A stretch of 64,000 nucleotides of DNA from Tenacibaculum sp. 190130A14a. GTDB lineage: Bacteria; Bacteroidota; Bacteroidia; Flavobacteriales; Flavobacteriaceae. Position 1 is the stretch's first letter. Each line of letters begins with the position of its first letter. The notes under the pieces are model-generated. The model was given only the letters and a program-made list of their open reading frames with translations. It had not been told where the DNA came from and ran no database searches. Location of the stretch: NCBI RefSeq assembly GCF_964048965.1, contig NZ_OZ040189.1, positions 1,674,001 to 1,738,000 on the forward strand, in the 5' to 3' direction. The position numbers and the translations under genes were made by a program. This document shows, one piece after another, positions 1-21,000 of the stretch.

Positions 1-467
1 GTGCACGTCGCTATGCAGAATCTCAATACCATGGTGTTGAACGGTATATGAAAAGTATTGGAGTTGATAAACCAATTCATATAGGAGAAACAGGTTGGGC
101 TAGTTATTCAAATGAGTTTTATGGTAATAAAGGTTCTAAAGCCACAGATGAATATAAAGAAGCACTTTTTTATGAGCATATGAGAGATTGGACAGCTAAA
201 GAGGGCATGTCGTGTTTCTATTTTGAAGCTTTTGATGAAACTTGGAAAGATGCTCAAAACCCTGAAGGATCAGAAAACTATTTTGGTTTATTTACCGTAG
301 ATGGAAAAGCAAAATATGCTTTATGGGATTTAGTAGATAAAGGAGTTTTTAAAGGATTAAAACGAGGAGGAAATAAAATAGTTAAAACCTACAACGGAAG
401 CAAAGAGAATCTTCTGGTAGATGTATTAATGCCTCCTTTAAGAAAGGAACTGGTAATAACACCATAA
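1..467 (+). CDS. GH17-type beta-glucanase, 3' part only
   Basis: The frame is open from the first bases of the window (codons start at position 3), so the gene begins upstream and only about 154 residues are visible. They align by eye with the C-terminal half of the two GH17 domains further right: an IGETGW motif carries the likely nucleophile Glu (bases 87-89) and is followed by FYFEAFDETWK and a YFGLF segment, the positions of FYFSSFDESWK and YWGIW in the paralogues. GH17 enzymes cleave beta-1,3-glucans such as laminarin. A C-terminal tail of about 45 residues goes beyond the end of the paralogues and is not recognised. The stop overlaps the next ATG by one base (TAATG), so the two genes are probably translationally coupled. 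Signal peptide and acid/base residue lie outside the window, so the cellular location is unknown. Confidence 0.8.
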   Translation, partial: ARRYAESQYHGVERYMKSIGVDKPIHIGETGWASYSNEFYGNKGSKATDEYKEALFYEHMRDWTAKEGMSCFYFEAFDETWKDAQNPEGSENYFGLFTVDGKAKYALWDLVDKGVFKGLKRGGNKIVKTYNGSKENLLVDVLMPPLRKELVITP

Positions 468-1963
468 TGATTATGATACTTATAAAGAGATTAACATTTT
501 TCGTTCTAATTTTTATAATGATGACTCAATGTAAAAATAATTCAGAATTAAAGCTAGAAGTACTAGAAACATCAGCTAGTGGGAATAAACTAACGCCAAT
601 ATCTGAATTTTCTATAGAAGGACATTTATCGAAAATAAGTATCAATCCTGAAAAAAAATATCAAACAATTACCGGGTTTGGAGGCTCTTTTACAGAAGCA
701 TCTGCCTATTTGTTAAACAAACTAAGTAAGAAAAATAGAGATAAAGTATTACAAGCATATTTTGGAAAGGAAGGAGCAAATTATTCCTTAACAAGAACGC
801 ATATAAGCTCCTGTGATTTTTCATTGAGCAACTATACATATGCTCCAGTAGCTGAAGATATGGAGCTTGAACATTTTAATATAGAAGAGGATAAAGAAGA
901 TTTGGTACCCATGATAAAAGATGCTATGTCTATTTCTAATGAAGGGTTTAAGATTATAGCATCTCCATGGACCGCTCCACCTTGGATGAAAGATAATAAC
1001 CATTGGGTTGGAGGTAAGCTGTTACCAAAATATAATGATAGCTATGCGCTGTTCTTTTCTAAGTATTTAAAAGCCTATAAAAAAGAAGGAATTGATATAT
1101 GGGGAGTAACAGTTGTCAATGAACCTCATGGAAATGGAAACAATTGGGAGAGTATGCACTTTTCACCGAAAGAGATGACCGATTTTGTACAATATCATTT
1201 AGGCCCAAAACTAGAAAAAGAAGGCTTAGAAAAGGTGAAAATTTTTGGGTATGATCAGAATAGAGATGGTTTAAAGGAATGGGTAGATGAAATGTACAAA
1301 GATGAAAATTCTTCTAAATACTATGCAGGAACTGCAATTCATTGGTATGAGAGTACAGTTGATTATTTTCCAAAGGCATTGCAATATGCACATAAGAAAG
1401 CTCCTAATAAGTATCTAATTCAAACAGAAGCTTGTGTAGATTCAGAAGTTCCTAAATGGAAAGATGATGCTTGGTATTGGAGTAAAGAAGCTACAGATTG
1501 GGGTTGGGATTGGGCACCAGAGCATCAGAAAAGCTGGCATCCTAAGTATGTACCCGTATACCGTTACGCAAGAGATATTATTGGCTGTTTAAATAATTGG
1601 GTAGATGGCTGGGTAGATTGGAATATGGTTTTAAATAAACAAGGAGGCCCTAATTGGTTTAAAAATTGGTGTGTAGCTCCGGTTATAGTAGACGAAGAAG
1701 CAGATGAGGTATACTTAACACCAATTTATTATACACTTGCTCATTTCAGCAAATACATTCGTCCTAAGGCAGTAATCATAGAATCAGAAACAAATGATGC
1801 TCAAGTTATGGTTACCGCAGCACTCAATCCTGATAAGACCATTTCAGTAATATTATTTAATCCTACTCATGAGAAGAAGCAGTTCACAATTGAGTTAAAT
1901 AATAAAACGAAAAACATTTCAATAGGAAAGCAAGCAATACAAACTATCATCATTACTAATTAA
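467..1963 (+). CDS. GH30-family glucosidase lipoprotein
   Basis: A 498-residue glycoside hydrolase of family GH30. The N-terminus is hydrophobic and ends in a lipobox-like MMTQC with Cys22, so the enzyme is probably a lipoprotein of the cell envelope. The TIM barrel opens with the TGFGGSFTEA motif. The likely acid/base is Glu219 in VVNEPHG and the likely nucleophile is Glu321 in QTEAC. The C-terminal 80 or so residues match the beta-sandwich that GH30 enzymes carry. In laminarin loci GH30 enzymes are usually thought to remove beta-1,6-linked glucose branches; that substrate is inferred from the GH17 neighbours. The start at 467 overlaps the preceding stop; an alternative ATG at 473 would shorten the protein by two residues. 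The length is normal for the family. Confidence 0.9.
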   Translation: MIMILIKRLTFFVLIFIMMTQCKNNSELKLEVLETSASGNKLTPISEFSIEGHLSKISINPEKKYQTITGFGGSFTEASAYLLNKLSKKNRDKVLQAYFGKEGANYSLTRTHISSCDFSLSNYTYAPVAEDMELEHFNIEEDKEDLVPMIKDAMSISNEGFKIIASPWTAPPWMKDNNHWVGGKLLPKYNDSYALFFSKYLKAYKKEGIDIWGVTVVNEPHGNGNNWESMHFSPKEMTDFVQYHLGPKLEKEGLEKVKIFGYDQNRDGLKEWVDEMYKDENSSKYYAGTAIHWYESTVDYFPKALQYAHKKAPNKYLIQTEACVDSEVPKWKDDAWYWSKEATDWGWDWAPEHQKSWHPKYVPVYRYARDIIGCLNNWVDGWVDWNMVLNKQGGPNWFKNWCVAPVIVDEEADEVYLTPIYYTLAHFSKYIRPKAVIIESETNDAQVMVTAALNPDKTISVILFNPTHEKKQFTIELNNKTKNISIGKQAIQTIIITN

Positions 1964-1975
1964 AAGAAACTAACA

Positions 1976-4306
1976 ATGTCACAATCAGTAAAAGTTCCAT
2001 TCGGTCAAAAAGTCGCTTTTGGTGTTGGTATGTTTGCCAATCAAATGTTTCCTGCAATATTGGGTATTTTCATGGTAGTCTTGGTAGAAGATTTAAAATT
2101 TACAGGACTTATGTGGGGAATGATTTATTTATTCCCAAGATTGTTTGATGCTATCACCGATCCTTTAATGGGGTTTATTTCAGACAACACGAAATCTAAA
2201 TGGGGAAGACGTAGACAATATGTTTTGGCAGGAGGAATTGTAATGGGAATTGCATATGTTTTTATGTGGCAACTCTTTAAAGAGAATACGGTACAATACA
2301 ATTTTTGGTATTTCTTTCTTTGGTCTGTTGTGTTTTACTTGGGACTTACGCTTTTCAGTGTTCCTTATGTAGCGATGGGATATGAAATGAGTGATGATTT
2401 CCATGAACGTACAAATATTATGGCAATTGCTCAATGGATTGGACAATGGGCTTGGGTAATAGCACCCTTATTTTGGATTATTATGTACGATCCAGAATGG
2501 TTTCCTTCTGCAGATGTAGCTGCCAGAAAATTAGCCATATGGGTAGCCGTTCCATGTGCTATTTGTGCTATTGTACCCGCATTGTTTATTAAAAGTGAAT
2601 CTACCTTAGATAAAGATTATGAGCCATTAAACATTTTAAACATTAGTGGTAGCTTAAAGAAAATACTGAGGAGTTTTGTAGAAGCATTTAGAATGAAAGA
2701 GTTTAGAAAGCTATGTCTTGCTACATTTTTTATTTACAATGCCTTTATGGCTGTATCCTCATTAACATTTTTTGTAATAGTCTATAAGTTATTTAATGGT
2801 AGTGCAGAAGCATCGGGTATATGGATATCCCTATTTGGAGCTTTAGGAGCTTTAGGAACCACTTTTATAGTAATACCTGTTGTAGCCTGGCTTTCAAAAA
2901 GAATGGGTAAGAAAAAGGCATTTATGTTATGCCAAACGATTTCTATTCTAGGATATATTATGATGTATTTTCTGTTTATTCCAGGGAAACCATGGATGTA
3001 TATCATAGCCTTACCATTCTTTTCTTTCGGTATTGGGAGTTTATTTACCATTATGATGTCAATGACAGCCGATGTAATAGATATTGATGAATTGAATACA
3101 GGAAAACGTAGAGAAGGAATTTTTGGAGCAATTTATTGGTGGATGGTAAAAGTAGGTTTCGCAATTGCAGGAGCATTGAGTGGTGTTATCATATGGGCGG
3201 TTGGTTTTAATGCCGATTTACCAACAGTAGAGCAGCAAGCTTCAGTAGATGGATTACACGCATTTTTTTGCTTTTTCCCCATTATAGGAACAGTAGCGGC
3301 AATGTACGTAATGCGTAATTATAGTGTTTCAGAAGCAAGAGCGAATGAAATTCGTGCACAACTAGATCGTAGAAAGAAACCAGTAGGGTCTTCATACTAT
3401 CAAACAAATAAATTGGCATCTTTATTTTCTTCTAATTTAAATATTGATAATTCTACAGAGATCGATTTCAAATCAAAATCAGCAGAAGAAATCAAAACAA
3501 TGTTCAGAAACACATTGCAAAATAAAATGCACGGATTGTGTTTTAGTCCGTATTTAGAAGGACAAAACATAGGAGACCAGCTATCAGAAAGTCAAATTCA
3601 ACAACGTATGGATATTGTTGCTCCTTATACAGGTTGGATTCGTTCTTTTTCATGTACAGACGGAAATGAGCTCATACCAAAAGTAGCCAAAAGCAGGCGC
3701 TTAAAAACAATGGTGGGAGCTTGGATTGGAAATGATAGCGATAAGAATGCAGTAGAGATTGATAATTTAATCAAGTTGGCTAAAGAAGGATATGTAGATG
3801 TAGCAGTTGTTGGAAATGAAGTTTTATTACGTGAAGATTTAAGTGAAGAAGAACTCATAAACAATATCCTCAAAGTAAAAAAAGCCTTGCCAGATATTTC
3901 GGTAGGATATGTAGATGCTTATTACCAATTTGTAGAAAGACCTAAATTGGTTGAGGTGTGCGATGTTATTTTGGTAAACTGTTATCCGTTCTGGGAAGGA
4001 AGTTCTATTGAAGAGGCTTCAGAGTATTTAAGAAAAATGTTTGCAGTTACACAACAAATAGCTAATGGAAAACAAGTAGTTATTACAGAAACCGGATGGC
4101 CTAATAAAGGAGATAATACAGAGAAAGCAGAACCTTCAGAAAGTAACGCGATGAAATACTTTATAAATACCATTGTATGGTCTCAACAAAAAAATATACC
4201 GCTGTTTTATTTCTCTTCTTTTGATGAATCTTGGAAAGTACATCAAGAAGGAGATGTTGGTTCACGTTGGGGAATTTGGAACAAGAATGAAAAGTTAAAA
4301 TATTAA
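1976..4306 (+). CDS. Sugar:cation symporter fused to a GH17 glucanase domain
   Basis: A 776-residue two-part protein. Residues 1 to about 455 are a full-length GPH-type (MelB-like, MFS_2) sugar-cation symporter with about twelve hydrophobic segments and conserved loop residues such as DPLMGFISDNT and KWGRRRQ. A polar linker (about 455-488) leads into a complete GH17 domain (about 489-776) with acid/base Glu615 in VVGNE and nucleophile Glu705 in ITETGWPNKG. Transporters of this family have both termini in the cytoplasm, so the GH17 domain should face the cytosol and hydrolyse imported beta-1,3-gluco-oligosaccharides at the inner membrane; this topology is inferred. There is no frameshift or internal stop at the junction. 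The downstream gene is a free copy of the same GH17 domain. Spacing to the GH30 gene is 12 bases, so the genes look co-transcribed. Confidence 0.9.
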   Translation: MSQSVKVPFGQKVAFGVGMFANQMFPAILGIFMVVLVEDLKFTGLMWGMIYLFPRLFDAITDPLMGFISDNTKSKWGRRRQYVLAGGIVMGIAYVFMWQLFKENTVQYNFWYFFLWSVVFYLGLTLFSVPYVAMGYEMSDDFHERTNIMAIAQWIGQWAWVIAPLFWIIMYDPEWFPSADVAARKLAIWVAVPCAICAIVPALFIKSESTLDKDYEPLNILNISGSLKKILRSFVEAFRMKEFRKLCLATFFIYNAFMAVSSLTFFVIVYKLFNGSAEASGIWISLFGALGALGTTFIVIPVVAWLSKRMGKKKAFMLCQTISILGYIMMYFLFIPGKPWMYIIALPFFSFGIGSLFTIMMSMTADVIDIDELNTGKRREGIFGAIYWWMVKVGFAIAGALSGVIIWAVGFNADLPTVEQQASVDGLHAFFCFFPIIGTVAAMYVMRNYSVSEARANEIRAQLDRRKKPVGSSYYQTNKLASLFSSNLNIDNSTEIDFKSKSAEEIKTMFRNTLQNKMHGLCFSPYLEGQNIGDQLSESQIQQRMDIVAPYTGWIRSFSCTDGNELIPKVAKSRRLKTMVGAWIGNDSDKNAVEIDNLIKLAKEGYVDVAVVGNEVLLREDLSEEELINNILKVKKALPDISVGYVDAYYQFVERPKLVEVCDVILVNCYPFWEGSSIEEASEYLRKMFAVTQQIANGKQVVITETGWPNKGDNTEKAEPSESNAMKYFINTIVWSQQKNIPLFYFSSFDESWKVHQEGDVGSRWGIWNKNEKLKY

Positions 4307-4320
4307 AACAAAGAATTGCA

Positions 4321-5217
4321 ATGTCATTTAGAACGGGAAAAATAAAATCTTTAACAGTAAGTTCAGGAATATCTTTTGAGGGGAAATCTACAGAAGATTT
4401 GAAGGAGTTATTCAATGATATTTTAGCGAATGGAATGTATGGTTTATGTGCCAGTTTTTATGAAGAAGGTCAGGAACCAGGAGATCAACTAACCGAAGAA
4501 CAAATAAGAAGAAGGTTAACCATTATGAAACCTCATATTAAATGGATTCGTTCTTTTTCTTGTACCGAAGGAAATGAGTTAATTCCCAAAATAGCTAAAG
4601 AAATGGGAATTAAAACCTTAGTGGGAGCTTGGTTAGGAGATGATTTAGAAATCAATGAAAATGAGATTAAGGGACTGATACAATTGGCAAAAAAAGGATA
4701 TGTTGATATTGCTGCGGTAGGTAATGAGGTAATGTATAGGAGAGATTTATCGGAAGAAGAATTGCTAGCATATATGCAACAAGTAAAAAAAGAGTTACCT
4801 ACAAATATTCCTATGGGCTATGTTGATGCCTATTATGAATTTACTGAAAGACCTAAAATTACGCAAGCTTGTGATGTCATACTTACCAACTGTTATCCTT
4901 ACTGGGAAGGTTGTCATATAGATTATTCTTTGATGTATATGAAGCAAATGTATTATCAAGCTTTAGATGCAGCCAATGGAAAACCAGTTATTATTACAGA
5001 AACAGGTTGGCCAAGTAAGGGAGAAGGTTTAGAAGGAGCAATACCTTCTTATGAGAATGCCTTAAAGTATTTGATAAATGCTCAAAAATGGTCTTCAGAA
5101 GATAATATACCGATGTTCTATTTCTCTTCTTTTGATGAATCTTGGAAGGTTGGAGATGAAGGAGATGTAGGAGCATATTGGGGAATTTGGGATAAAAATG
5201 AAAAGTTAAAGTATTAA
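4321..5217 (+). CDS. Cytoplasmic GH17 beta-1,3-glucanase
   Basis: A 298-residue stand-alone GH17 domain that aligns along its whole length with the C-terminal domain of the preceding transporter fusion; both end in KNEKLKY. The likely acid/base is Glu136 in AVGNEVMYR and the nucleophile is Glu227 in ITETGWPSKG. There is no signal peptide, lipobox or membrane segment, so it should act in the cytoplasm on imported laminari-oligosaccharides. The close similarity to the fused domain suggests an intragenic or tandem duplication. The ATG lies 14 bases after the previous stop, and the next gene starts 2 bases after this stop. The exact specificity (exo or endo, oligosaccharide length) cannot be read from the sequence. 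Confidence 0.88.
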   Translation: MSFRTGKIKSLTVSSGISFEGKSTEDLKELFNDILANGMYGLCASFYEEGQEPGDQLTEEQIRRRLTIMKPHIKWIRSFSCTEGNELIPKIAKEMGIKTLVGAWLGDDLEINENEIKGLIQLAKKGYVDIAAVGNEVMYRRDLSEEELLAYMQQVKKELPTNIPMGYVDAYYEFTERPKITQACDVILTNCYPYWEGCHIDYSLMYMKQMYYQALDAANGKPVIITETGWPSKGEGLEGAIPSYENALKYLINAQKWSSEDNIPMFYFSSFDESWKVGDEGDVGAYWGIWDKNEKLKY

Positions 5218-5219
5218 AA

Positions 5220-6194
5220 ATGGTTACGTTAAAACAGTTATCTAAAGAGTTGGGAGTATCAATTTCAACTGTTTCTAAAGCTTTAAGTGATAGTTTTGAA
5301 ATAAGTGAAAGAACCAAGAAAAAAGTACTAGCATTAGCTAGGAAATACAATTATCGTCCCAATAATGTAGCTGTTAATCTTAGAGCGAAATCTACAAAAA
5401 CAATAGGGGTAATTATACCTAATATTTTCAATCATTTTTACACTAAAATTCTCTCTGGAATAGAACAAGAAGCAAAAAGGAATAACTATAAGGTTATTGT
5501 TTCTATCTCTAATGAAACAGTCTCTTCAGAAAAAGAAGGTATTTCTTTTTTCTCTAATGGAAGTGTAGACGGAATTTTGTTAGCACCTTCAGAAGAAACA
5601 GAAAAATTAGGAAACTATAAGCATATTTCTGCCTTACACCAAAAAGAGATTCCGTTTGTTTTATTTGATCGATATTCAGAAAAATTGAACTCAGATAAAG
5701 TAATTATCAATGATTTTGATTCTGCAAAAAAAACGGTAAAGTATCTCATAAATAAAGGAAGAGAAGAAATAGTAGTCGTTTCTTTAATAAAACATTTGAG
5801 TGTAGGAGAGTTGAGAAAAAAAGGAGCTTTTGATGCATCTAAGAAAATTACACTACTAGAATTTGAAAAAGAAGAGGAGTTAGAAGAAGCATTTCTAAAA
5901 TTAATTAAGCGTAAGCGTATAGATGCCGTTTTAGCATTGGATGAGTTGTCGGGTATTATAACTTTAAACATAGCAAGAACAGTAGCATTTAAAATTCCTG
6001 AAGAGTTAACCATTATTAGTTTTAGTCAAGGAGTTTTATCTGAATATTCGTATCCGAAACTTTCTACAATTAATCAGCATGCAAAAGAAATAGGAGAAAA
6101 TTCTGTACAGTTATTATTAACTAGATTAAAAAACAAAGAAGCCTCTTATAAAACAAGAATCATTAAAACAGCTTTAGAGATTCATCAAACATAA
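5220..6194 (+). CDS. LacI-family transcriptional regulator
   Basis: A 324-residue LacI/GalR-type regulator. The N-terminal helix-turn-helix (residues 2-25, LKQLSKELGVSISTVSKAL) is followed by the hinge helix region (RPNNVAVNLR) and a periplasmic-binding-like effector domain starting at TKTIGVIIPNIFNHFY. The length is slightly below the usual 330-345. The ATG begins 2 bases after the GH17 stop, so it is very probably part of the beta-glucan operon and autoregulated with it; the inducer would be an imported glucoside, which is inferred from context. It ends 4 bases before the convergent Pol IV gene, and I see no hairpin terminator between them. Confidence 0.92.
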   Translation: MVTLKQLSKELGVSISTVSKALSDSFEISERTKKKVLALARKYNYRPNNVAVNLRAKSTKTIGVIIPNIFNHFYTKILSGIEQEAKRNNYKVIVSISNETVSSEKEGISFFSNGSVDGILLAPSEETEKLGNYKHISALHQKEIPFVLFDRYSEKLNSDKVIINDFDSAKKTVKYLINKGREEIVVVSLIKHLSVGELRKKGAFDASKKITLLEFEKEEELEEAFLKLIKRKRIDAVLALDELSGIITLNIARTVAFKIPEELTIISFSQGVLSEYSYPKLSTINQHAKEIGENSVQLLLTRLKNKEASYKTRIIKTALEIHQT

Positions 6195-6198
6195 CTAA

Positions 6199-7416
6199 TT
6201 ACCTTCTTCTATTGGCTAATAATGGAGGAGGTTCTCCTTTAAAAGGATTCCATCTAGAAATACTTTTAGCTTCCATACCTTGGGCACGCATTACAGCTCT
6301 ATCGCCATACCGTTCTCTTAGTTTATCCATTGCGCTATATAGGTTGATAATCTTTTCATCATCATCAAAAAGATCAATTTGATGAGCACCTTCAACCAAA
6401 TGAGAAAAACGAACCCCTACAAGGCGAACGAGCATTCTTCTTTTGTAAAGCTTTTTATAGAGCTCTTTAACAATAGGAATTATTTTATGATCAGCAGCGC
6501 TATAAGGAATACGTTGTTGTTGGGTATAGGTTTGGAAATCGGAATATCGTATTTTAAAAGTAATGCATGCAGTAAGTTTGTTTCCGCGTCGTAATTGATA
6601 AGCTAAATTCTCAGCCATAGCCACAATAATACTTTCTAATTTTCTAACATCTGTAGTGTCTTTATCAAAAGTACGTTCGGTAGAAATTGATTTTCGTTCA
6701 TGATATTGTACAACAGGACTGTTATCGATTCCATTTGCTTTTTTCCAGATAGAAACTCCGTTTTTTCCAAATACTCTCGACATCATTTCAATAGGCATTT
6801 CTTGAATAGATTTAATTCTTTTTAATCCTAAATCACAAAGAGACCTATAAGTAACTTCACCAACCATAGGGATTTTCTTTACAGAAAGAGGGGAGAGAAA
6901 TGGTTTTTCGTTGCCTTTATCAATCTTAATTTGATTGTTAGGTTTTGCTTCTCCTGTAGCAATTTTAGAAACGGTTTTATTAATAGAATGTCCAAATGAA
7001 ATAGGGAGTCCGGTTTCTTTAATGATTTTCTGTCGTAGTTCTGTAGCTAATTGATGACAACCAAAGAATTTATCCATTCCAGTTAGGTCTATATAGAATT
7101 CATCTACAGAAGTCTTTTCATATAAAGGAACCGATTCTTTGATTACTTCAGTAACCAAATTAGAATACTTAGAATAAATTTGAGAGTTTCCCCGAATAAT
7201 AATGGCTTCAGGACATAATTGCTTTGCCATTCGCATAGGCATTGCAGAATGAATTCCGAAAGTTCTGGCTTCGTAACTACAAGAAGCCACGACACCTCTG
7301 TCGGAGGTACCACCTATAAGAATGGGTTTTCCAATTAATTTACTATCTAATAATCGTTCACAAGAAACAAAGAAAGTATCGAGATCCATATGTACAATTG
7401 ATCTTTGTGTACTCAT
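6199..7416 (-). CDS. dinB: Y-family DNA polymerase IV
   Basis: A 405-residue Y-family translesion polymerase. The catalytic acids are visible: Asp11 in the N-terminal HMDLDTFF and Asp105-Glu106 in SVDEFYIDL. The little-finger domain occupies roughly residues 240-350, and QIDLF at 346-350 fits a beta-clamp binding motif. The start codon overlaps the stop of the upstream dnaE-type gene (ATGA), so the two polymerases are translated from one message. Pairing a Y-family polymerase with a second DnaE and a LexA-like repressor resembles the inducible mutagenesis cassettes (imuB/dnaE2 type) of other phyla, though ImuB itself lacks an intact active site whereas this protein keeps its own. Confidence 0.93.
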   Translation of the reverse strand: MSTQRSIVHMDLDTFFVSCERLLDSKLIGKPILIGGTSDRGVVASCSYEARTFGIHSAMPMRMAKQLCPEAIIIRGNSQIYSKYSNLVTEVIKESVPLYEKTSVDEFYIDLTGMDKFFGCHQLATELRQKIIKETGLPISFGHSINKTVSKIATGEAKPNNQIKIDKGNEKPFLSPLSVKKIPMVGEVTYRSLCDLGLKRIKSIQEMPIEMMSRVFGKNGVSIWKKANGIDNSPVVQYHERKSISTERTFDKDTTDVRKLESIIVAMAENLAYQLRRGNKLTACITFKIRYSDFQTYTQQQRIPYSAADHKIIPIVKELYKKLYKRRMLVRLVGVRFSHLVEGAHQIDLFDDDEKIINLYSAMDKLRERYGDRAVMRAQGMEAKSISRWNPFKGEPPPLLANRRR

Positions 7417-10406
7417 AATATGCTTTTTTTAGGTTTAGGGCGTTGTGCTTTTCTACTGTCTGCATATCGGGGATCTTCTATAATGGCAAGGCGTTGCATT
7501 GTTTTTGTTTCAATAGAAATACAATCAAACTCCTCTATAACTTTACCTGTTATTCGGTAGATGCCTTTACCTCTAAATGGAAATTTTTTAGCCTCTGACG
7601 GAAAGTGAACCGTATCAATAAAATCACCTTCGAGGTCTAAAAATGTTCCAAAGTACATTTGTTGTCCTTTTGAAGTGCTTGTCTTTTTTATAGTAACCAA
7701 ATACCCTTCAATAGTAATATATTTTCCTGTATAGTGAGGAAGCATTTTAGCACGAATAGGGTGAAGTTTTTTTTCTACAAGAAGGCTAAAAGGACTTGAT
7801 AACGGAAAACCTAATAACTCAATTTGATCAAAGGCATTTTCTAATTGAGTAGAGTTTAACTTAGGAATCTCATAACGTACCTTTTCTACTTGAAACAGGG
7901 ATATATGAAATTCATCAACCGTTACATTGTTAATTTTCATATGTGCTTCCCATAAGAGTTCTCTTTTGTGTTTTTTAGAAAAACGAAAAGCATCGATTTT
8001 TATTAAAATAGTAATCTGTTCTACAGAAATAGGAACACGTTCTATGAAATCATCTAAAGAGCTAAAAGCACCATTGGCATTTCTTTCTACTAAAATTCTC
8101 TGAATAGTTTTTGCTTCTAAAGATTGTAAAAAACGAAAGCCAAGATAAATATCTTTATCTTGAATAATAGCTAAATATTCACTTGTATTAATACAAGGAG
8201 CATGAATAATACCTCCATGTAATCGAGCTTCATGAATGTATAATTCAATACTATAAAAACCTCCTGAATTATTAATAGTAGCTACCATGTATTCTAGAGG
8301 GTAATAGGCTTTTAAAAATAGACTTTGATAGCTTTCTACAGCATAAGAAGCAGAATGTCCTTTCGCAAAGGCATATCCAGCAAAACTCTCTATTTGTCTC
8401 CATACATCTTTGGTCAGTTCAAAACTCTTTCCTGAGCTTTTACAATTATCAAAAAATTGCTGTTTCACTTTTAAAAATTCCTCACGAGATCGAAATTTCC
8501 CAGACATTCCACGGCGTAACATATCGGCTTCTCCCAAGGTAAGCCCTCCAAAATAATGTGCTACTTTAATCACATCTTCTTGGTATACCATAACTCCATA
8601 GGTTTCTGGCATAATATCTAATAGTACAGGGTGTGCATCTTTTCTTCTATTAGGATATCTGAAGCGTAAAATATATTCACGCATCATACCCGATTTAGCT
8701 ACTCCAGGTCTAATCACCGAACTAGCAGCTACCAATCCTAAATAATGATCTACTTGTAGTTTCTTAAGTAGCATTCTCATAGCTGGAGATTCTACATAAA
8801 AACAACCAATAGCTTTCGCATTTTTTAATAGGTATTTAATTCGAGCATCTTCTTTAAACTTTGCAATATTATGAATGTCAATAGGAGGGAGTTCAGGGTG
8901 ATTATTAGCTACAATTGACACCGTATCTTTAATTTTTCCTAGACCTCGCTGACTAAGAATATCAAATTTATACAAGCCAATATCTTCAGCAACGACCATA
9001 TCTATGTGGGTGGTTGCAAAACCTTTAGGAGGCATAAAAGTTGCACAGTAATGATGTATTGGTTTTTCAGAAATAAGTATTCCACTGGCATGAATTCCCA
9101 AGTAATTAGGAAAACCTTGAATATAGGTACTGTAAATAATTACCAATTGTGATAATTTATCTAAGGTATTATAGTTGTAGCTTCCAGAAGACAGTAAATC
9201 AATTTCATTTTTTGGTAATCCAAAAACCTTTCCTAACTCTCGAATTGCAGCTTTAAACTTAAAAGTATTGTATACAGTAATTAATGCTGTATTGGGAAAT
9301 CGGTTAAAGATAAATTCCGTTATATCATCTCTGTCTTGCCAAGAAAAGTCAATATCAAAATCGGGCGGATTCTTTCTATAGAGATTGATAAAACGTTCAA
9401 AGTATAAATCTAGTTCAATAGGATCTACATCAGTAATTCTTAAAAGGTAGGCAATAATACTATTAGCTCCACTACCTCTTCCAACATAAAAATAACCTTT
9501 AGAACGAGCGTATTTGAGTATTTTCCAATTGATTAAAAAGTAAGATACAAAGCCTTTTTCTTTTATAATTTCTAATTCTTTATCAATTCTTTCAAATACA
9601 TGTGAATCAGGTTGTGGATAGCGGTACTTAATTCCATTAAGACTCAGTTTCTTTAAAAGTTTATAGTCTAAAATTTCATTCCCTGTGTATGCTTTTTGGT
9701 TATTGGTTGTTTCTCCAGAGAAATCAAAATCAATAGAACACTTTGAAACAAGTTCCTGTGTGTTTTCAATAATTTGCGGATACTCTTCAAAATAGGTTAG
9801 CAATTCTTCTTTTGAAATAAACTGATGCCATTCTTTACCTTGTTCAGTAGTTGCTAAACGACTCAAAAGCTCGTTATTATCAATAGCTCTTAAGAGTCTA
9901 TGTGTATTAAAACCTTTTTTGTTTTGAAAACTTACCGTATGAAGAATTACAAGTTTATCTAATTTGTTTTTCCATTTTGAAAAAGGGAGTCGTGTTAATT
10001 CAGTATGAGAAATTCCTATAAATTCATTAGAAGCTAATTCAAAATCTATGTCTTTTTCAAAAGGATATATAACAAACGTATGAGCTAAGCTTTTGGCTCT
10101 TGTAGGAATCTCTAAATTCTCCTGATGCAAAAAATCAGAGAGATAGGTGTTTATATTTTGAAAACCATTATTATTTTGAGCAACTAAAACAAACTCTTGG
10201 CATGCCTTATTTCGAAAATCTACACCTATCAAAGGAGTAATGTTATATTTTGGAGCCAATCGTATAAACTCTAAACAAGCAGTAGTATTATTAATGTCGG
10301 TTAAAGTAATAGTGTTGATGTTCATGGTTTTAGCGAGTTCTAATAACTCTTCAGTACTCATGGAACCATAGCGTAAACTGTAATATGTATGACAATTTAG
10401 AAACAT
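7413..10406 (-). CDS. Accessory (error-prone type) DNA polymerase III alpha subunit
   Basis: A 997-residue C-family polymerase, shorter than a replicative DnaE (about 1150-1180). Order: PHP domain (about 1-90), palm with the catalytic triad Asp349, Asp351 and Asp353 in PPDFDIDF, fingers, helix-hairpin-helix (about 770-800) and an OB-fold (about 890-970). The PHP signature is incomplete: the second motif reads LTDINN where metal-binding versions have a His after the Asp, so PHP-type proofreading is unlikely. This is also seen in other DnaE proteins. Its neighbours are Pol IV (4-base overlap) and, divergently, a LexA-like repressor, which supports a role as damage-inducible DnaE2/ImuC-type polymerase and not the main replicase. 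The start ATG lies 4 bases downstream of a candidate -7 box. The gene symbol dnaE2 would be plausible but is not certain. Confidence 0.9.
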   Translation of the reverse strand: MFLNCHTYYSLRYGSMSTEELLELAKTMNINTITLTDINNTTACLEFIRLAPKYNITPLIGVDFRNKACQEFVLVAQNNNGFQNINTYLSDFLHQENLEIPTRAKSLAHTFVIYPFEKDIDFELASNEFIGISHTELTRLPFSKWKNKLDKLVILHTVSFQNKKGFNTHRLLRAIDNNELLSRLATTEQGKEWHQFISKEELLTYFEEYPQIIENTQELVSKCSIDFDFSGETTNNQKAYTGNEILDYKLLKKLSLNGIKYRYPQPDSHVFERIDKELEIIKEKGFVSYFLINWKILKYARSKGYFYVGRGSGANSIIAYLLRITDVDPIELDLYFERFINLYRKNPPDFDIDFSWQDRDDITEFIFNRFPNTALITVYNTFKFKAAIRELGKVFGLPKNEIDLLSSGSYNYNTLDKLSQLVIIYSTYIQGFPNYLGIHASGILISEKPIHHYCATFMPPKGFATTHIDMVVAEDIGLYKFDILSQRGLGKIKDTVSIVANNHPELPPIDIHNIAKFKEDARIKYLLKNAKAIGCFYVESPAMRMLLKKLQVDHYLGLVAASSVIRPGVAKSGMMREYILRFRYPNRRKDAHPVLLDIMPETYGVMVYQEDVIKVAHYFGGLTLGEADMLRRGMSGKFRSREEFLKVKQQFFDNCKSSGKSFELTKDVWRQIESFAGYAFAKGHSASYAVESYQSLFLKAYYPLEYMVATINNSGGFYSIELYIHEARLHGGIIHAPCINTSEYLAIIQDKDIYLGFRFLQSLEAKTIQRILVERNANGAFSSLDDFIERVPISVEQITILIKIDAFRFSKKHKRELLWEAHMKINNVTVDEFHISLFQVEKVRYEIPKLNSTQLENAFDQIELLGFPLSSPFSLLVEKKLHPIRAKMLPHYTGKYITIEGYLVTIKKTSTSKGQQMYFGTFLDLEGDFIDTVHFPSEAKKFPFRGKGIYRITGKVIEEFDCISIETKTMQRLAIIEDPRYADSRKAQRPKPKKSIL

Positions 10407-10407
10407 A

Positions 10408-10454
10408 CTACAAAATTAAGTACAAAATATAGCAAAGATTGCTTATATTTGTAG
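10408..10454. promoter_or_regulatory. Operator and divergent promoters between dnaE-type and LexA-like genes
   Basis: The 51-base gap between the divergent starts holds an imperfect inverted repeat at 10421-10453: TACAAA-N4-AGCAA-N3-TTGCT-N4-TTTGTA, with 11 of 15 arm positions paired. A further TACAAA lies at 10409-10414, forming CTACAAA/TTTGTAG with the right arm. A candidate -7 box TATATTTG (10444-10451) points right, 6 bases before the repressor ATG. TAATTTTG on the minus strand (10411-10418) points left, 4 bases before the polymerase ATG. The palindrome covers the rightward box and abuts the leftward one, as expected for an autoregulated repressor. I found no convincing -33 element for either promoter. 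That the neighbouring LexA-like protein binds here is inferred. Confidence 0.65.
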
Positions 10455-10457
10455 CAA

Positions 10458-11228
10458 ATGAAAAATATAGCAAAAAACATCCGTCATTTACGTAAGTTAA
10501 AAAGTCTTACACAAGAGCAGTTTGCTGATGATGTGTCTATTACTCGTTCTCGAGTTTCTTCTTATGAAGAAGGTCGGTCAGAACCTCCTATTGAAACATT
10601 GATTAACTTTTCGAATTACTTTAATTTACCGATTGATATTTTGGTAAAGAATGATTTGACTTATGCTACAGATACTTCTTTTATAGAAATAGGAAATCAA
10701 CGTGTATTGTTTCCAATAGCGGTAGATAATACCAATGAAAATATGATTGAGGTAGTACCTACAGAAGCTTCAGCAGGATACCTTTTAGGATATGACGATC
10801 CAGAATATATTGAGCAGTTACAAAAAATAAAACTTCCGTTTTTGCCTGTAGGAAAACACAGAGCATTTCCTATTAAAGGAGATTCTATGCACCCTATGAA
10901 AGATGGTTCATATGTAATAGCGAGCTTTGTTGAAAATGTAAGAGATGTAAAGGATGGAACATCATATATCATTGTGACTAAGAATGATGGAATGACTTAC
11001 AAGCGTTTGTATAATAAAATAGAGGAGAGTAATACTTTATTACTTGTGCCTGATAATAAAAACTATGCATCGTATAATGTTCCAGTGGCTGAGGTGGTTG
11101 AGTTATGGGAATTTACCTGTAGCATCAATACACAAGAGTATGATGAAAGAGATTTAAAAATAAGTAGTATTGCCAATATGCTCACTCAATTAGGAGTGGA
11201 ATTAGAATCATTAGCCAAGCTTCAATAA
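10458..11228 (+). CDS. LexA-like self-cleaving XRE/S24 repressor
   Basis: A 256-residue repressor with an XRE-type helix-turn-helix (about residues 5-60, LTQEQFADDVSITRSRVSSYEEG) and a C-terminal S24/LexA-type peptidase domain. The self-cleavage elements are all present: Ala106-Gly107 in EASAGYL, nucleophile Ser143 in KGDSMHPM, and general-base Lys182 in MTYKRLY. Spacings of 36 and 39 residues are close to those of E. coli LexA (84/85, 119, 156). DNA damage would therefore be expected to trigger RecA-stimulated autocleavage and derepress both flanking transcription units. The stop overlaps the ATG of the downstream nuclease (TAATG). Phage CI-type repressors share this architecture, but no phage genes are nearby. 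Confidence 0.9.
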   Translation: MKNIAKNIRHLRKLKSLTQEQFADDVSITRSRVSSYEEGRSEPPIETLINFSNYFNLPIDILVKNDLTYATDTSFIEIGNQRVLFPIAVDNTNENMIEVVPTEASAGYLLGYDDPEYIEQLQKIKLPFLPVGKHRAFPIKGDSMHPMKDGSYVIASFVENVRDVKDGTSYIIVTKNDGMTYKRLYNKIEESNTLLLVPDNKNYASYNVPVAEVVELWEFTCSINTQEYDERDLKISSIANMLTQLGVELESLAKLQ

Positions 11229-12640
11229 TGAATTACGCAATAGTTGATATAGAAACTGACGGAGGAGTAAAAATTACTGAAATAAGTATTTTTATTTTCG
11301 ATGGAGAACAAGTAATTGATGAATTTACCACATTGGTTAATCCGGGAACTAACATTCCTGGATTTATTACACAGCTTACTGGAATTACCAACTTTATGGT
11401 AAAAGATAGTCCTAAGTTTGAAGAAGTGGCCAAAAAGATTTATCAGATTACAGAAGGCTGTATTTTTGTAGCTCATAATGTAAATTTCGATTATGGAATT
11501 ATAGGAAAAGAGTTTAAATCATTAGGATTAACCTATCGAAGAAAGAAACTTTGTACAGTTCGATTATCAAGAAAATTATTGCCAAATAAAAAATCATACA
11601 GCTTAGGGAAGCTATGTGTTTCGGAAGGAATTACGATTGCAGACAGACACCGAGCAAGAGGAGATGCAGAAGCAACAGTTATTTTATTTCAAAAGTTAAT
11701 CGAAAAAGATCGAGTAGATGATTTTAAAGTGATTAATTCCTTTTTAAATCCGAGATCTAAAGAAGCAACCTTACCACCTTTATTAGCGAAAGAAGTTTTT
11801 GATGGTTTATCAGAAAAACATGGAGTCTATTATTTCTGGAATAAAGATAAAGAGGTCATCTATGTAGGAAAAGCTAATAATATCAAGCAACGAGTATTAA
11901 GTCATTTTCATGATAAGAAAAAGAAAGAAATACTTATGTGTATGGCAACTGCTAATATAACGTACACAGAAACAGGAAATGAGTTATTGGCACTTTTATT
12001 AGAATCGGCAGAAATTAAGCGATTGTTTCCTAAATATAACAGAGCGCAAAGAAGAAAGCAGCATGGTTACGCATTGTTTAGCTATTATGATAGAAAAGGA
12101 ATTCTTCATTTAGCGTGGAATAATTTAAAAATGGTGAATCAACCACTGATGAAGTTTTATACGCTTACAGAAGCACGAAATTTTGTAGAACGTTTGTGTA
12201 GCACTTTTGAATTATGTCCGAAATATTGTCATTTACAAACCAATGTAAGTAGCTGTTTTCATTACCAAATAAAAGAATGTAGAGGTATTTGTAGAGAAGA
12301 GGAAGCTATAGAAAATTATAACAGTCGTGTAGTTGAAGCAATAGCTTCGTTGGCTTTCGATAACAAAGATTTTGTAGTACATGAAGCAGGAAGAGAAGAG
12401 AATGAGATAGGCTATGCTTTAGTAGTGAATAATATTTATAAAGGATATGGTTATCTAAAAAAGCAGAAAACCTATACTTCAAAAGATTACCAAGAGAATC
12501 TACAAAGCCAATCTGATAATCAAGATGTACGAAGAATACTCAATGCGTATTTAAGAAAGAATTCAGAAGCAATTATTGAAATAGATGCAAGCTCTTATCA
12601 AGAAGATTCTGTGATAGAATTGGAGTTTAAGTTTGAGTAG
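11228..12640 (+). CDS. DnaQ-like exonuclease fused to GIY-YIG nuclease
   Basis: A 470-residue fusion. Residues 1 to about 165 form a DEDDh 3'-5' exonuclease of the DnaQ/epsilon type with Asp7 and Glu9 (DIET), Asp88 (HNVNFD), His141 and Asp146 (HRARGDAEA). Residues about 193-275 form a GIY-YIG endonuclease domain like the UvrC/Cho N-terminus (HGVYYF at 198-203, IYVGKA at 211-216, Glu252 candidate metal ligand). The remaining 190 residues include several Cys (for example CPKYCHLQ and CRGIC) similar to the Cys-containing part of Cho/UvrC proteins. Such DnaQ-UvrC-like fusions are known in several phyla. The one-base overlap with the LexA-like gene makes this part of the same damage-inducible unit; a role in excision repair or proofreading for the adjacent polymerase is inferred. 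Confidence 0.88.
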   Translation: MNYAIVDIETDGGVKITEISIFIFDGEQVIDEFTTLVNPGTNIPGFITQLTGITNFMVKDSPKFEEVAKKIYQITEGCIFVAHNVNFDYGIIGKEFKSLGLTYRRKKLCTVRLSRKLLPNKKSYSLGKLCVSEGITIADRHRARGDAEATVILFQKLIEKDRVDDFKVINSFLNPRSKEATLPPLLAKEVFDGLSEKHGVYYFWNKDKEVIYVGKANNIKQRVLSHFHDKKKKEILMCMATANITYTETGNELLALLLESAEIKRLFPKYNRAQRRKQHGYALFSYYDRKGILHLAWNNLKMVNQPLMKFYTLTEARNFVERLCSTFELCPKYCHLQTNVSSCFHYQIKECRGICREEEAIENYNSRVVEAIASLAFDNKDFVVHEAGREENEIGYALVVNNIYKGYGYLKKQKTYTSKDYQENLQSQSDNQDVRRILNAYLRKNSEAIIEIDASSYQEDSVIELEFKFE

Positions 12641-15029: not shown

Positions 15030-18000
15030 ATGATTATGCAAAAAAGATTACTTATAGTTTTAGCTTTTTGTAACATCTTTATATCATTTACCAATGCACA
15101 ATCTATAGAGTGTTCTTTAGATGAAACTACCTTTTCAGGAACGATAACAACAACAGGTGCTGGTGGAGTAAAAATAAAAGCGAGTGACGCTACTTCAAAC
15201 TATAGATTTGGAGAGCGAGTAGCTATAGATGGTAATATTGCTGTTACAGTATCTCGCAATAATGGAGCAGTAGCAGGGAAAGTATATGTATATATTAACG
15301 ATGGTTCAGGAAACTGGTCTCAACAAACCATATTAACAGCTAGTGATGGTTTTGCAGGTGATAATTTTGGATCTAGTGTTGCCTTAGAGGGTAATTACTT
15401 AGTTGTTGGAGCTAGATCACAAACCAATACATCAGTAGTAGATTCAGGAGCAGCTTATCTATTTGAATATGATGGAGTAAGTACCTGGACAGAAGTTAAA
15501 ATATTTGAACCTAGCGATGGAAGTTCAGGTGATCGTTTTGGAGAATCCGTTTCTATTGAAGGAAACTTAATTCTTGTTGGAGCTAGGGATGGAGCAGTAG
15601 GAGGATGTGCTTATTTATATGAAAATGATGGAACCAATACATTTACATACACCGAAACTAAATTAGAACCTCAAGTACAATCTAATTATTCAGGGGCAAA
15701 ATTTGGTTATGATGTTTTGGTTAAAGATGGTCGCGCCTATGTTGGTGGGCCTGCGGATTATTCTTCTGTAGGTAGAGCTTCTGCCGGATCGGTACAAATA
15801 TGGGACCAAGCTAATGATGGATCTTGGTCGCGAACACACAGATTAAGAGGTACAGAAACCTCTGAGTATTTTGGTAGCGCTATTAGTGTTAATGGAGATT
15901 ATTTAGCTATTGGTGCATATAATTTTGAAGTATCCTCTACACCTGAAGCTGACCAAGGTAGAGTGTTCGTTTATAAAGCCGATATAAATGGTGATTATTT
16001 AGATGCCAACAGAGTAATGGTTCAGAATGATGATAAGGACAGTTATAATGACCAACGTTTTGGAACAGATGTGGTAATAGATAATGGTTTTTTATATGTC
16101 GGAACTTTTGGAAATGGATCAAACAGCACTGATGCCGTTTATATTTTTAAAGATGATAGTACTAATAATTGGTCTCAATTAACTAAACTGACTTCTGGTG
16201 GCGGATGGGATGAATTTTCAAATAGAGCGTTAGCAGTTTCTTATCCTTATCTACTTATAGGACAAAATGAAGATGATTCACCTTCAAATTCCGGTGCAAT
16301 TCATTTTGTATCTCTAGCAAGTACAATAACTCCAACTGCTTCGATTTCGGAAGTTACATCAGCATTTATAGGTCAAAATAATGCAACTATAAAACTTAAT
16401 TTTACAGATGAAGCTACACGTACTGAGATTCAATTTAGTATTGATGGAGGAACAACTTACCCATATGCCTTTAGTGATGATTCAGGAACAGCTGATATAA
16501 CTAATTTAGGAGTAGGTTCGTATGATCTTAAAGCAAAATATAATTCTGGTTCATGTGTTTTAGACTTAGGAACTGTATCTGTAAATCAAGCTCCCTATAC
16601 GGCTATTCCAGATGCAAATTTTGAAGCTGCTTTAGAAGCCTTAGGATATGATGATATTTCTGGAGATGGACAAGTGCCAACAGCTATTATTGAAGTGGTA
16701 ACTTCTTTAGATGTTTCGAACGGATCAATTTCTGACATGACAGGAATTCAAGATTTTCTTGCCTTAGAATATCTAAATTGTAGAGTTAATCCTCTTGAAA
16801 GTATAGATCTATCAAATAATGCACAATTAAAAACATTTATTAGTGACAGTAGTCGATTGGATGAAATTGACGTAACAAACAATCCATTATTAGAGGTATT
16901 AGATGTTTCTGCTAATGATGACATAGCAGTATTGAACCTTAGTAATAATTCATTACTTAGAGAATTAACATGTAATTTTAATTCAATTACTGCTTTAGAT
17001 TTAAGTAATAATACAGTTTTAGAAGTTTTAATAGCGTATAACAATAATTTAACTTCATTAGATTTAACTAGCAATGCTGCATTAGTACAACTAGATGCTA
17101 GAAACAACAGCTTAACTTCTCTAGATATTAAAAACGGGAATAACACGAATATGACAACTTTTGATGTTCGTTCTAATTCTGGATTATTTTGTATTAATGT
17201 AGATGATAAAGCATATAGTACCACTAATTGGACTCAAATAAGTTCCGGAATGGTATTTAGTGATGATGGTTGTCGATATACACAAATACCAGATACTAAT
17301 TTTGAAGCGGCTTTAAATACTTTGGGTTATGATGACCTTTTAGGTGACGGACAAGTGCCAACAGCTTTAATTGAAGTTATCACCACACTTGAATTAAACA
17401 ATCAAAACATTTCAGATTTAACAGGAATCAATGATTTTATTGCATTAGAATCCTTAAAACTTCAATACAACAGTTTGACTTCTTTAGATGTTTCAAGCTT
17501 AGTCAATCTTAAAACACTTTGGGCTTCAAATGGAAATATTTTCAACACTATAGATGTTAGTAATAATACGGCACTACAAGATTTTAGAATTAGACAGTAT
17601 AAAGGAACAACAATAGACTTGTCAGCTAACACAGCATTAACCCGTTTTGCTTGTACAAGTTGTGATTTAGAGACAGTAGATACAAGTAATAATCCCAACC
17701 TAAATTTTCTAGATTTATGGGATTCAGACATTACATCGATAGATGTGAGTTCAAATATAAATTTAGCTACATTAGACGTTGCATACACAAATTTATCCGA
17801 ATTAGATTTATCATTAAATACTGGCTTAACAAATTTAATTGCTCATGATATAAACTCGTTAACGAGTTTAAATGTTAAAAATGGTACTAATACAAGCATT
17901 ACTGGATTCAAGACTGCTGGAACCCCTGTTCCTTGTATTTTAGTAGATGATGTTACTTACAGTACAACCAATTGGACAAATATTGACGCAACCTCTACAT

Positions 18001-21000
18001 TTAGTAATACCTATTGTAATTATACGGCAATTCCAGATGCTAATTTTGAAGCAGAGTTAGAAGCTTTAGGTTATGATGATATTTCAGGTGATGGACAAGT
18101 GCCAACCGCATTAATTGAAGTTGTAACAGCTTTAGATGTTAATAATAAGAATATTTCAGATTTAACAGGAATTGAAGACTTTACTGCATTAATAGAATTA
18201 ATAGCTAATGCTAATAATATTACTAGTATAGATATTTCTCAAAATGTAGATTTAGAAACACTAATAATTGGAGCAAATGATTTAACGGTATTAGATATTT
18301 CTAATAATACGTTATTGAAGCGATTAGATGTTTTGTATAATGACATTACAACTTTAGACACTAGGAATAACCCTAACTTGGTTACTCTAAAGGCTTATAA
18401 TACAGATGTTACTAGTTATGACTTTAGCAATAACCCTCTTTTAGAAAAAGTAGAAATATATAATAATAATGCTTTAACAGCTTTGGATGTTTCTAATCTA
18501 TCTCAATTAGATGACCTTAGAATAAACAATACAGGGATTTCAGTATTAGATTTAAGTAATAACCCTAATTTAAGAATTATAAGAGCAAGTGATTCTAATA
18601 TTCAATCATTAGACTTATCTATTCAAACTAGTTTAATACACGTATACGTTGATAATACCCCTATAAATCATCTTAATGTAAAGAATGGAAACAATACGAA
18701 CTTCACTCAGTTTCATGCAGATGGTACACCAAACCTGAACTGTGCTGTTGTAGATGACGCAACGTTTAGCACTACTAACTGGACAAATGTAGATGTCGGG
18801 ATGATTTTTAATGATACCTTTTGCAGATACACTGCTATCCCTGATGCTAATTTTGAAACACGATTAAATACATTAGGATATGATGATATTGCTGGTGATG
18901 GTCAAGTACCAACAGCTTTAATCGAAGGAATTACCACATTAGATGTAAGTAACCAAAATATAGCAGATTTAACAGGTATTGAAGGTTTTACAGCACTTGT
19001 AGATTTAAATGTAGAAACAAATACATTAACAAGTTTAGACCTTAGTAACAATACTAATCTTCAAGCTTTAAATTTTGATAATAATACTATTGCGAATTTA
19101 AACTTAGGCGCAATTTCAAATTTAACTTCAATAGAAGGTCGTTACAATCAATTGTTAACAATAGATTTGAGTAAAAATACCAACCTAACATTCGTTAACT
19201 TAAGAGATAATTTATTCACAAGTCTAGATGTTTCAAGTAATCCTCTTTTAGAAACGATTAATTTAAGAGGTTGTACCAACTTAACAAGTATTGATATAAG
19301 TAATAATCCTAATGTGAAGTTTTTATATTTTCAAGACACCTTGTTAAACGGATTAGATGTTTCTCAAAATCCATTATTAGAAGTTATAGTTATTGAACGT
19401 GTTAATTTTAATAGTATTGATGTATCTAATTTACCACTATTAAGACAATTAAGAATTGCAGATAATAGTTTTACAAGTTTAGATGTATCAAATAATCCAG
19501 CTTTAGTACGATTAGAATGTGAAAATAACAATCTAACATATTTAAATCTTAAAAATGGCAATAACACCAACATGCCAAATGGAGATTTTATAGCTACAGG
19601 GAATACTTCTTTAACCTGTATTATAGTAGATGATGCTATTTACAGTGCAACCAATTGGACGAACATTGATGGTACTGCAAGTTTTACTGATGCTGATTAT
19701 TGTCAATATACTGATATTCCAGATGCAAATTTTGAAGCAAGATTAGAAGCTTTGGGTCATGATGATATTTCTGGAGATGGTAAAGTTCCTACAAGGTTAA
19801 TTAAAGAAGTTACTTCTTTAACCGTAAATGGACATTCGGTATCAGATTTTACAGGAATTGAAGATTTTACGGGATTAACTTATTTAGATGTAGGTAATAA
19901 TAATATTACTAGTCTTGATGTGTCAAATCTAATTTTACTAGAATTTTTAAGAGTTGACGGAAATTCGTTAACAAGTTTAGATCTTTCAAATAACACTATA
20001 CTAGTAGATTTGAGATGTTCTTATAATTCAGGAATTGCTGGCTTAGACTTATCAAGTAATACATTATTAGAAACTGCACACTTAGGTAACAATAGTATTG
20101 CTAGTTTAGATGTAAGTAACAATACTTTATTGTACGATTTACGTCTTACGGGAAATAACTTAACTACATTAAGCGTAACGAATAATACGGCATTACAAAC
20201 CTTAATTGTAAGCAGCAATCCTTTAACCACTTTAGATTTAACTGCAAATATAGCATTAACTTCTTTTTACGGAACTAATTGTGGTTTGACAACTGTAACG
20301 AATATCAATTCAACAGTTTTACAAGATTTATATTTACAAAGGAATAATCTTACTAGTATTGATTTTTCAAGTAGTGCAGCAACAATCACTAATGTTTATT
20401 TATCTGAAAATAGTATAACTGATTTAGATTTCACAGGAGCTATTAGTTTAAAAAAGCTATCTGTTTATGAGAATAATATTTCAAGTTTAGATGTTACACA
20501 AGCAGTAAGTTTAGAAGAAGTGTATGTTACTGATAATGATTTGACATACTTCAATATAAAAAACGGAAACAATACGGCAATTCATGAATTTCATGCAGAT
20601 AACAATCCTTCTTTAACTTGTATTTTAGTTGATGATGCTTCAACAAGCACTACTCGATGGATTAGTGGTATTGATAATACTGCCAGCTTTAGTGATACGT
20701 ATTGTCGTTATACAGCAATTCCAGATTCAATATTTGAAGCAAGATTAGAATCTTTAGGTTATGATGATATTTCTGGAGATGGACAAGTACCAACAGCACT
20801 AATTGAAACGGTAACATCGTTAACAGTAAATGATCTTGGAATTAATGAATTAACAGGAATTGAAAATTTTACTGCATTAGTTACATTAAACGCCAGAGGT
20901 AATAATTTTACTACGTTAGATGTGAGTGAGAACGTTTTATTACAGCACTTATATATCAATAGCAATAGTTTGCCATCAATCGATGTATCTAAAAATGTTG

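Follow-up and report, generated by a model that had tools for sequence, protein, structure and literature searches.

A laminarin-cluster symporter fused to a GH17 domain in Tenacibaculum, and a near family-wide split between fused and free GH17 domains in Bacteroidota

We analyzed a 64,000-nucleotide stretch of the Tenacibaculum sp. 190130A14a genome (contig NZ_OZ040189.1, positions 1,674,001 to 1,738,000 of the forward strand; hereafter the window), in which a single open frame on the + strand (1976..4306, ATG to TAA, 776 amino acids) joins a symporter of the GPH/MelB type to a glycoside hydrolase family 17 (GH17) domain. The encoded protein is of a type described before, and its gene lies in a standard laminarin cluster; the architecture is already known. 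What is new here is a near family-wide split between GH17 domains fused to transporters and free GH17 copies, with exceptions, together with what appears to be an independent fusion involving a free-type GH17 and an apparent exchange of the transporter.

The preliminary description of this stretch knew of no described enzyme with this layout, a statement contradicted by Unfried et al. 2018 (PMC6246565), who describe FORMB_24740 of Formosa sp. Hel1_33_131 as built in this way and put forward the coupling idea as well, and by PMC10108472; novelty of the architecture is ruled out by the former. The GH17 part of FORMB_24740 (FbGH17B) was given the role of an exo-beta-1,3-glucosidase on debranched laminarin and is reported to yield glucose, and coupling of hydrolysis to uptake was proposed, with the membrane side unproven in that work. 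The fusion was found by BLAST to be common in marine Flavobacteriia (PMC6246565). It is also reported for active genomes of Bacteroidota and Gammaproteobacteria, SAR92 included, where most of the expressed variant-1 laminarin clusters carry it, and such clusters were highly expressed by abundant bacteria during a North Sea spring bloom (PMC10108472). The earlier assignment to GH17 holds, but the term "glucanase" is imprecise because, as published, the enzyme acts on debranched laminarin in the manner of an exo-glucosidase. In the open-licence literature we found no report of a second transporter lineage or of a residue split between fused and free domains as a family-wide rule.

Results

The symporter part has twelve hydrophobic segments and takes up residues 1-456 (1976..3343, +). 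It is followed by a linker that is basic at its start and predicted to be cytoplasmic (residues 457-502, 3344..3481, +) and by the (beta/alpha)8 GH17 domain (residues 503-776, 3482..4303, +). Pfam assigned residues 15-452 to MFS_2 (E 4e-64) and residues 699-776, only the C-terminal part of the GH17 domain, to Glyco_hydro_17 (E 4.7e-13, 49.9 bits against a cut-off of 28.2). All eight strands of the GH17 barrel were present in the AlphaFold2 model (518-522, 552-557, 577-582, 609-614, 642-648, 664-668, 700-706 and 743-746), with pLDDT (predicted local distance difference test) below 50 at residues 750-776. Glu615, the predicted acid/base (codon 3818..3820, +), lies immediately past strand 4, and Glu705, the predicted nucleophile (codon 4088..4090, +), lies within strand 7. 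The latter pairs with the Glu in the ETGWP motif of the Rhizomucor miehei GH17 structure 4wtp, a residue replaced by Ala in the active-site mutant 4wtr, and both catalytic Glu are kept in 143/143 aligned GH17 rows. Structural judgement on this part draws on Foldseek rows 8, 9 and 31 and on sequence. A symporter and a GH17 domain with both Glu residues in one frame, as first described, are therefore borne out by Pfam, the model and the 4wtp alignment. The protein shares 99% identity with an entry from Tenacibaculum aiptasiae, and its 120 best homologues (best 120 of 7589 matching proteins; 71-99% identity) all carry MFS_2 and GH17 in a single chain, which rules out an assembly or sequencing error as the source of the fusion.

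Identity as a MelB-type symporter was confirmed by the full MFS_2 profile and by a structural match to MelB (7l16, 9old) over model residues 6-471. The cation-site residues D58, D62 and K392 are conserved in the alignment with MelB, whereas the galactoside-site residues differ. The C-terminus of MelB is cytoplasmic, and we know of no enzyme on its tail. Positive-inside counts over the twelve segments likewise place the C-terminus of the window protein in the cytoplasm, with basic cytoplasmic loops; based on these counts and the MelB fold, the GH17 domain is put, as a prediction, on the cytoplasmic side, in support of the earlier claim.

To compare fused and free domains, we collected GH17 rows from the window and 80 named loci (the best 80 of 577 confirmed stretches, each titled as Bacteroidota; gammaproteobacterial fusions lie outside this sample). 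Rows were kept at a minimum of 45% identity over 200 aligned residues, which dropped mainly the GH17A type and left 64 fused and 79 free rows. Searches of family, phylum and genus genomes added 19 fused and 33 free rows, and 6 of the resulting 195 rows are duplicates. A free copy is also present at 58 of the 64 fused loci; among the other six, three end at the contig end and three are from Winogradskyella. The GH17 tree needs two label changes, one of them due to L087_S3, an edge fragment inside the fused group. With L087_S3 counted as fused, a single starred branch (100) separates the two groups after addition of 30 of the 120 window homologues and 63 second-lineage proteins. In the enlarged tree, 83 of 84 sampled fused rows stand together (97, starred), and the remaining one, L109 (genome G238), falls among free rows, in a 19-row set with 18 of them (97, starred). 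The claim that fused domains form one clade without exception was dropped on account of L109; the approximately unbiased (AU) test does not reject a single clade (p 0.217). The linker of L109 continues into MSFREERFL, resembling the start of the free copy in the window (MSFRTGKIK), which suggests a separate MFS-GH17 fusion of a free-type GH17, as if an intergenic stop had been lost. Another fused GH17, that of L112 (genome G569), sits on a long branch within the fused group.

A search for free members of the fused group, among proteins 0.55-1.75 times 278 amino acids long, placed 65 of the 120 listed matches in that group. Most of these are fragments, as a transporter tail or linker is present. 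Five (P0131, P0153, P0191, P0148 and P0230) may be genuinely free, and we therefore limit the claim to a group found almost only in attached form. Two of the five, P0148 and P0230, are bacterial-group GH17 entries listed under the isopod Idotea baltica (UNVERIFIED_CONTAM), presumably bacterial contamination.

The split extends to position 618, which is Leu in the window protein (codon 3827..3829, +) and is equivalent to Tyr136 of MlGH17B and Tyr102 of RmBgt17A. MlGH17B of Muricauda lutaonensis (PMC11005184, PMC13188888) belongs to the same GH17 group as the window domain, is 53% identical to FbGH17B and is reported as a transglycosylase; FbGH17B has Met at the Tyr136 position, and Tyr102Ala abolished transglycosylation by RmBgt17A (PMC11005184). 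The latter is a fungal transglycosylase (4wtp) sharing the GH17 fold and catalytic pair with the window domain. Among the 64 fused rows we found Leu in 42, Met in 13, His in 6 and Gln in 3, and among the 79 free rows Tyr in 68, Leu in 10 and His in 1 (L087_S3). The further fused rows (n = 19) hold Leu (13), Met (3), Tyr (2) and His (1), and the further free rows (n = 33) Tyr (29) and Leu (4), so that Tyr occurs overall in 2/83 fused versus 97/112 free rows. Database fusions were without Tyr in both the set of 120 (Met 70, Leu 49, Ile 1) and the set of 63 (Leu 57, Met 4, Phe 2). Other columns separating fused from free include 756 and 757, the latter corresponding to Ser275 at subsite +1 by counting from Glu133/Glu615. 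In the window fusion the aglycone-site set of Tyr, Trp and Glu is thus incomplete, with Trp673 and Glu674 present and Leu618 in place of Tyr, and its free neighbour has all three. Because most fused domains are without the subsite Tyr, the fused GH17 has the look of a hydrolase, and its free counterpart that of a transglycosylase. MlGH17B, itself free and with Tyr136 present, is at this position like the free neighbour and unlike the fused domain.

The same GH17 group was also found attached to a second GPH transporter lineage (L045, L048, L075, L093, L105). Four fused rows out of 64, from Psychroflexus and Mesohalobacter, carry this transporter, which is 37-39% identical to that of the window; the linker of these fusions is partly similar to the window's, with which both linker and GH17 align, and their GH17 lies inside the fused group. 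Homologues of one such fusion comprised 63 fused and 57 free proteins among 120 listed. On the transporter tree (79 rows), fused and free states must switch nine times, with starred branches forcing at least seven of these changes; five are needed on the second-lineage tree, which holds all 63 fused proteins, 19 of the 57 free ones and matching loci, and on the GH17 tree the second transporter type needs four changes, at least two of them forced; these numbers are soft because the trees are quick searches. The safer claim is that either transporter exchange or repeated fusion took place.

Among 199 family genomes, 57 had a GH17 match at E 1e-15 and 12 a stop-free frame of at least 780 amino acids, in all 12 cases adjoined by a second copy of 299-309 amino acids. 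Among 395 phylum genomes, 37 matched at 1e-40 and 15 had frames of at least 780 amino acids; three of these 15 are also among the 12 family genomes, and one, G238, is without a second match. At the loci checked, transporter and GH17 share one frame in 7 from the family search (L007 cut at the contig start) and 12 from the phylum search (L112 and L120 truncated at the locus edge). No fused frame was found at 17 of the 80 named loci, one of which is probably a cut fusion. Among 58 genus genomes, 5 hold the whole stop-free fusion (61-100% identity), 20, including G583, a free transporter (62-82%), 6 a free second-lineage transporter adjoining a free GH17, 6 weaker or GH17-only matches and 21 no match. 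Seven fusions in the genus, six of the second lineage and one of the first, had been read from frame lengths and were rejected: stop codons interrupt the matches, and at the DNA level 7/7 proved to be pairs of separate genes. For this reason the second-lineage fusions rest on the five loci named above and on database proteins, not on the genus of the window.

The surrounding genes supported placement of the fusion in a beta-1,3-glucan cluster. Upstream, partly beyond the window, we found a Y_Y_Y protein (its LuxR-type match scores below cut-off), a GH2-like protein, GH16, a PKD protein, a GH149 1,3-beta-glucan phosphorylase (NCBIfam equivalog, 1792 bits; PDB 6hq6, 1603 bits), GH17A and GH30. 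The GH17A gene (426 amino acids) starts before the window, which holds its C-terminal part (1..467, +); GH30 follows at 467..1963 (+), and both N-termini look lipoprotein-like by eye. Downstream of the fusion lie the free tandem GH17 paralogue (4321..5217, +; 298 amino acids, Tyr kept in GNEVMYR, no signal peptide seen by eye) and a LacI-type regulator (5220..6194, +). Co-occurrence of GH149, GH30, GH17 and MFS-GH17 is the gene set of the variant-1 laminarin polysaccharide utilization locus, and a single chain holding both domains close to GH17A and GH30 matches the FbGH17B-type fusion, whose laminarin cluster likewise contains GH17A and GH30 (PMC6246565). No SusC/SusD pair was recognised by Pfam in the open reading frames (ORFs) scanned from L004:39 to the window. 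MlGH17B is encoded after an MFS gene, as is the free GH17 of the window, and the Muricauda cluster has similar gene content; the available text of PMC13188888 does not mention a fusion of its MFS gene.

Beyond the cluster, several features were noted by eye: adjoining Y-family polymerase-like, 997-amino-acid DnaE-like polymerase and LexA-like/helix-turn-helix ORFs resembling an SOS mutagenesis cassette (6199-11228), an ORF with an exonuclease-like N-terminus and a UvrC/GIY-YIG-like part (11228-12640) and a 2883-amino-acid ORF with leucine-rich-like repeat units and a recurring IPDANFEA motif (15030-23681). A single very long ORF of 4998 amino acids spans 47256-62252.

Discussion

We consider the following account, taken as a whole, probable. 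Periplasmic GH30 and GH17A would remove the branches of laminarin and shorten it to oligosaccharides; these activities are published for the Formosa homologues. The GPH part would import laminari-oligosaccharides with a cation, as its fold and conserved cation-site residues suggest, and the tethered, presumably cytoplasmic GH17 would release glucose near the transporter exit, in keeping with the published activity of FbGH17B. Free GH17 and the GH149 phosphorylase may handle the rest. As to origin, the fused domain is most likely a duplicate of the neighbouring free-type GH17 that would have lost the transglycosylation-linked Tyr and then persisted almost only in attachment to a transporter.

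Several observations weigh against this account. Transport and coupling of import to hydrolysis are, as far as our analysis goes, a published proposal. The relative placing of the two domains is unsure in the model (predicted template modelling score, pTM, 0.61), and one loop pair opposes the positive-inside rule (loop 4 = 1, loop 5 = 2). The residue rule is broken in both directions, by Tyr in the fusions L109 and L112, where in the latter it was kept or regained, and by the free rows with Leu (the ten being six from Cyclobacteriaceae/Flammeovirgaceae and four from Flavobacteriaceae, plus the four further ones) and the His of L087_S3. As the fused and free groups are largely clades, the residue counts reflect few, ancestral events. 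Finally, linkage is not essential, because many relatives are without the fusion (5/58 genus genomes fused, 20/58 with a free transporter).

The frequency of unfused pairs, in the genus and at the 17 named loci without a fused frame, is what would be expected if the tether set only expression level and location, with one hydrolase per transporter at the membrane and no hand-over of substrate. This alternative is credible, yet we are inclined to doubt it: attachment of the main fused group to two transporter lineages only 37-39% identical, and the separate fusion in L109, suggest that attachment itself matters. It is unlikely that the fused GH17 instead remodels imported oligosaccharides as a beta-1,3-glucanosyltransglycosylase of the MlGH17B kind. 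The best PDB sequence match of the domain is the R. miehei glucanosyltransferase (4wtp), the transglycosylase MlGH17B shares 53% identity with FbGH17B, all 64 fused rows and 183 database fusions have Trp673 and Glu674, and two fusions keep Tyr; against this, the window protein has Leu at the site where Tyr102Ala abolished RmBgt17A transglycosylation, and FbGH17B is reported to give glucose. A periplasmic GH17 domain feeding its products into the transporter is highly improbable: PMC6246565 speaks of coupled hydrolysis and product uptake with the side unproven and nothing in the present analysis favors it, whereas the twelve segments, the basic cytoplasmic loops, MelB homology and the lack of a signal peptide, by eye, in the nearest paralogue all oppose it.

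Returning to tethered cytoplasmic hydrolysis, we tentatively propose, with slightly more reason for doubt than for acceptance, that this GH17 group is a portable, transporter-dedicated hydrolase. It would be a duplicate of a cytoplasmic transglycosylase-like GH17 that mostly lost its acceptor-site Tyr and was joined to two distant GPH lineages, with L109 fused independently and the free copy left as a transglycosylase. If true, the repeated origin and exchange of partners would imply selection for physical coupling of sugar import to cutting. Laminarin ranks among the major marine carbon stores. Tenacibaculum holds fused and unfused versions, the latter with either transporter lineage, and the coupling idea of 2018 is thus open to comparison among near relatives.
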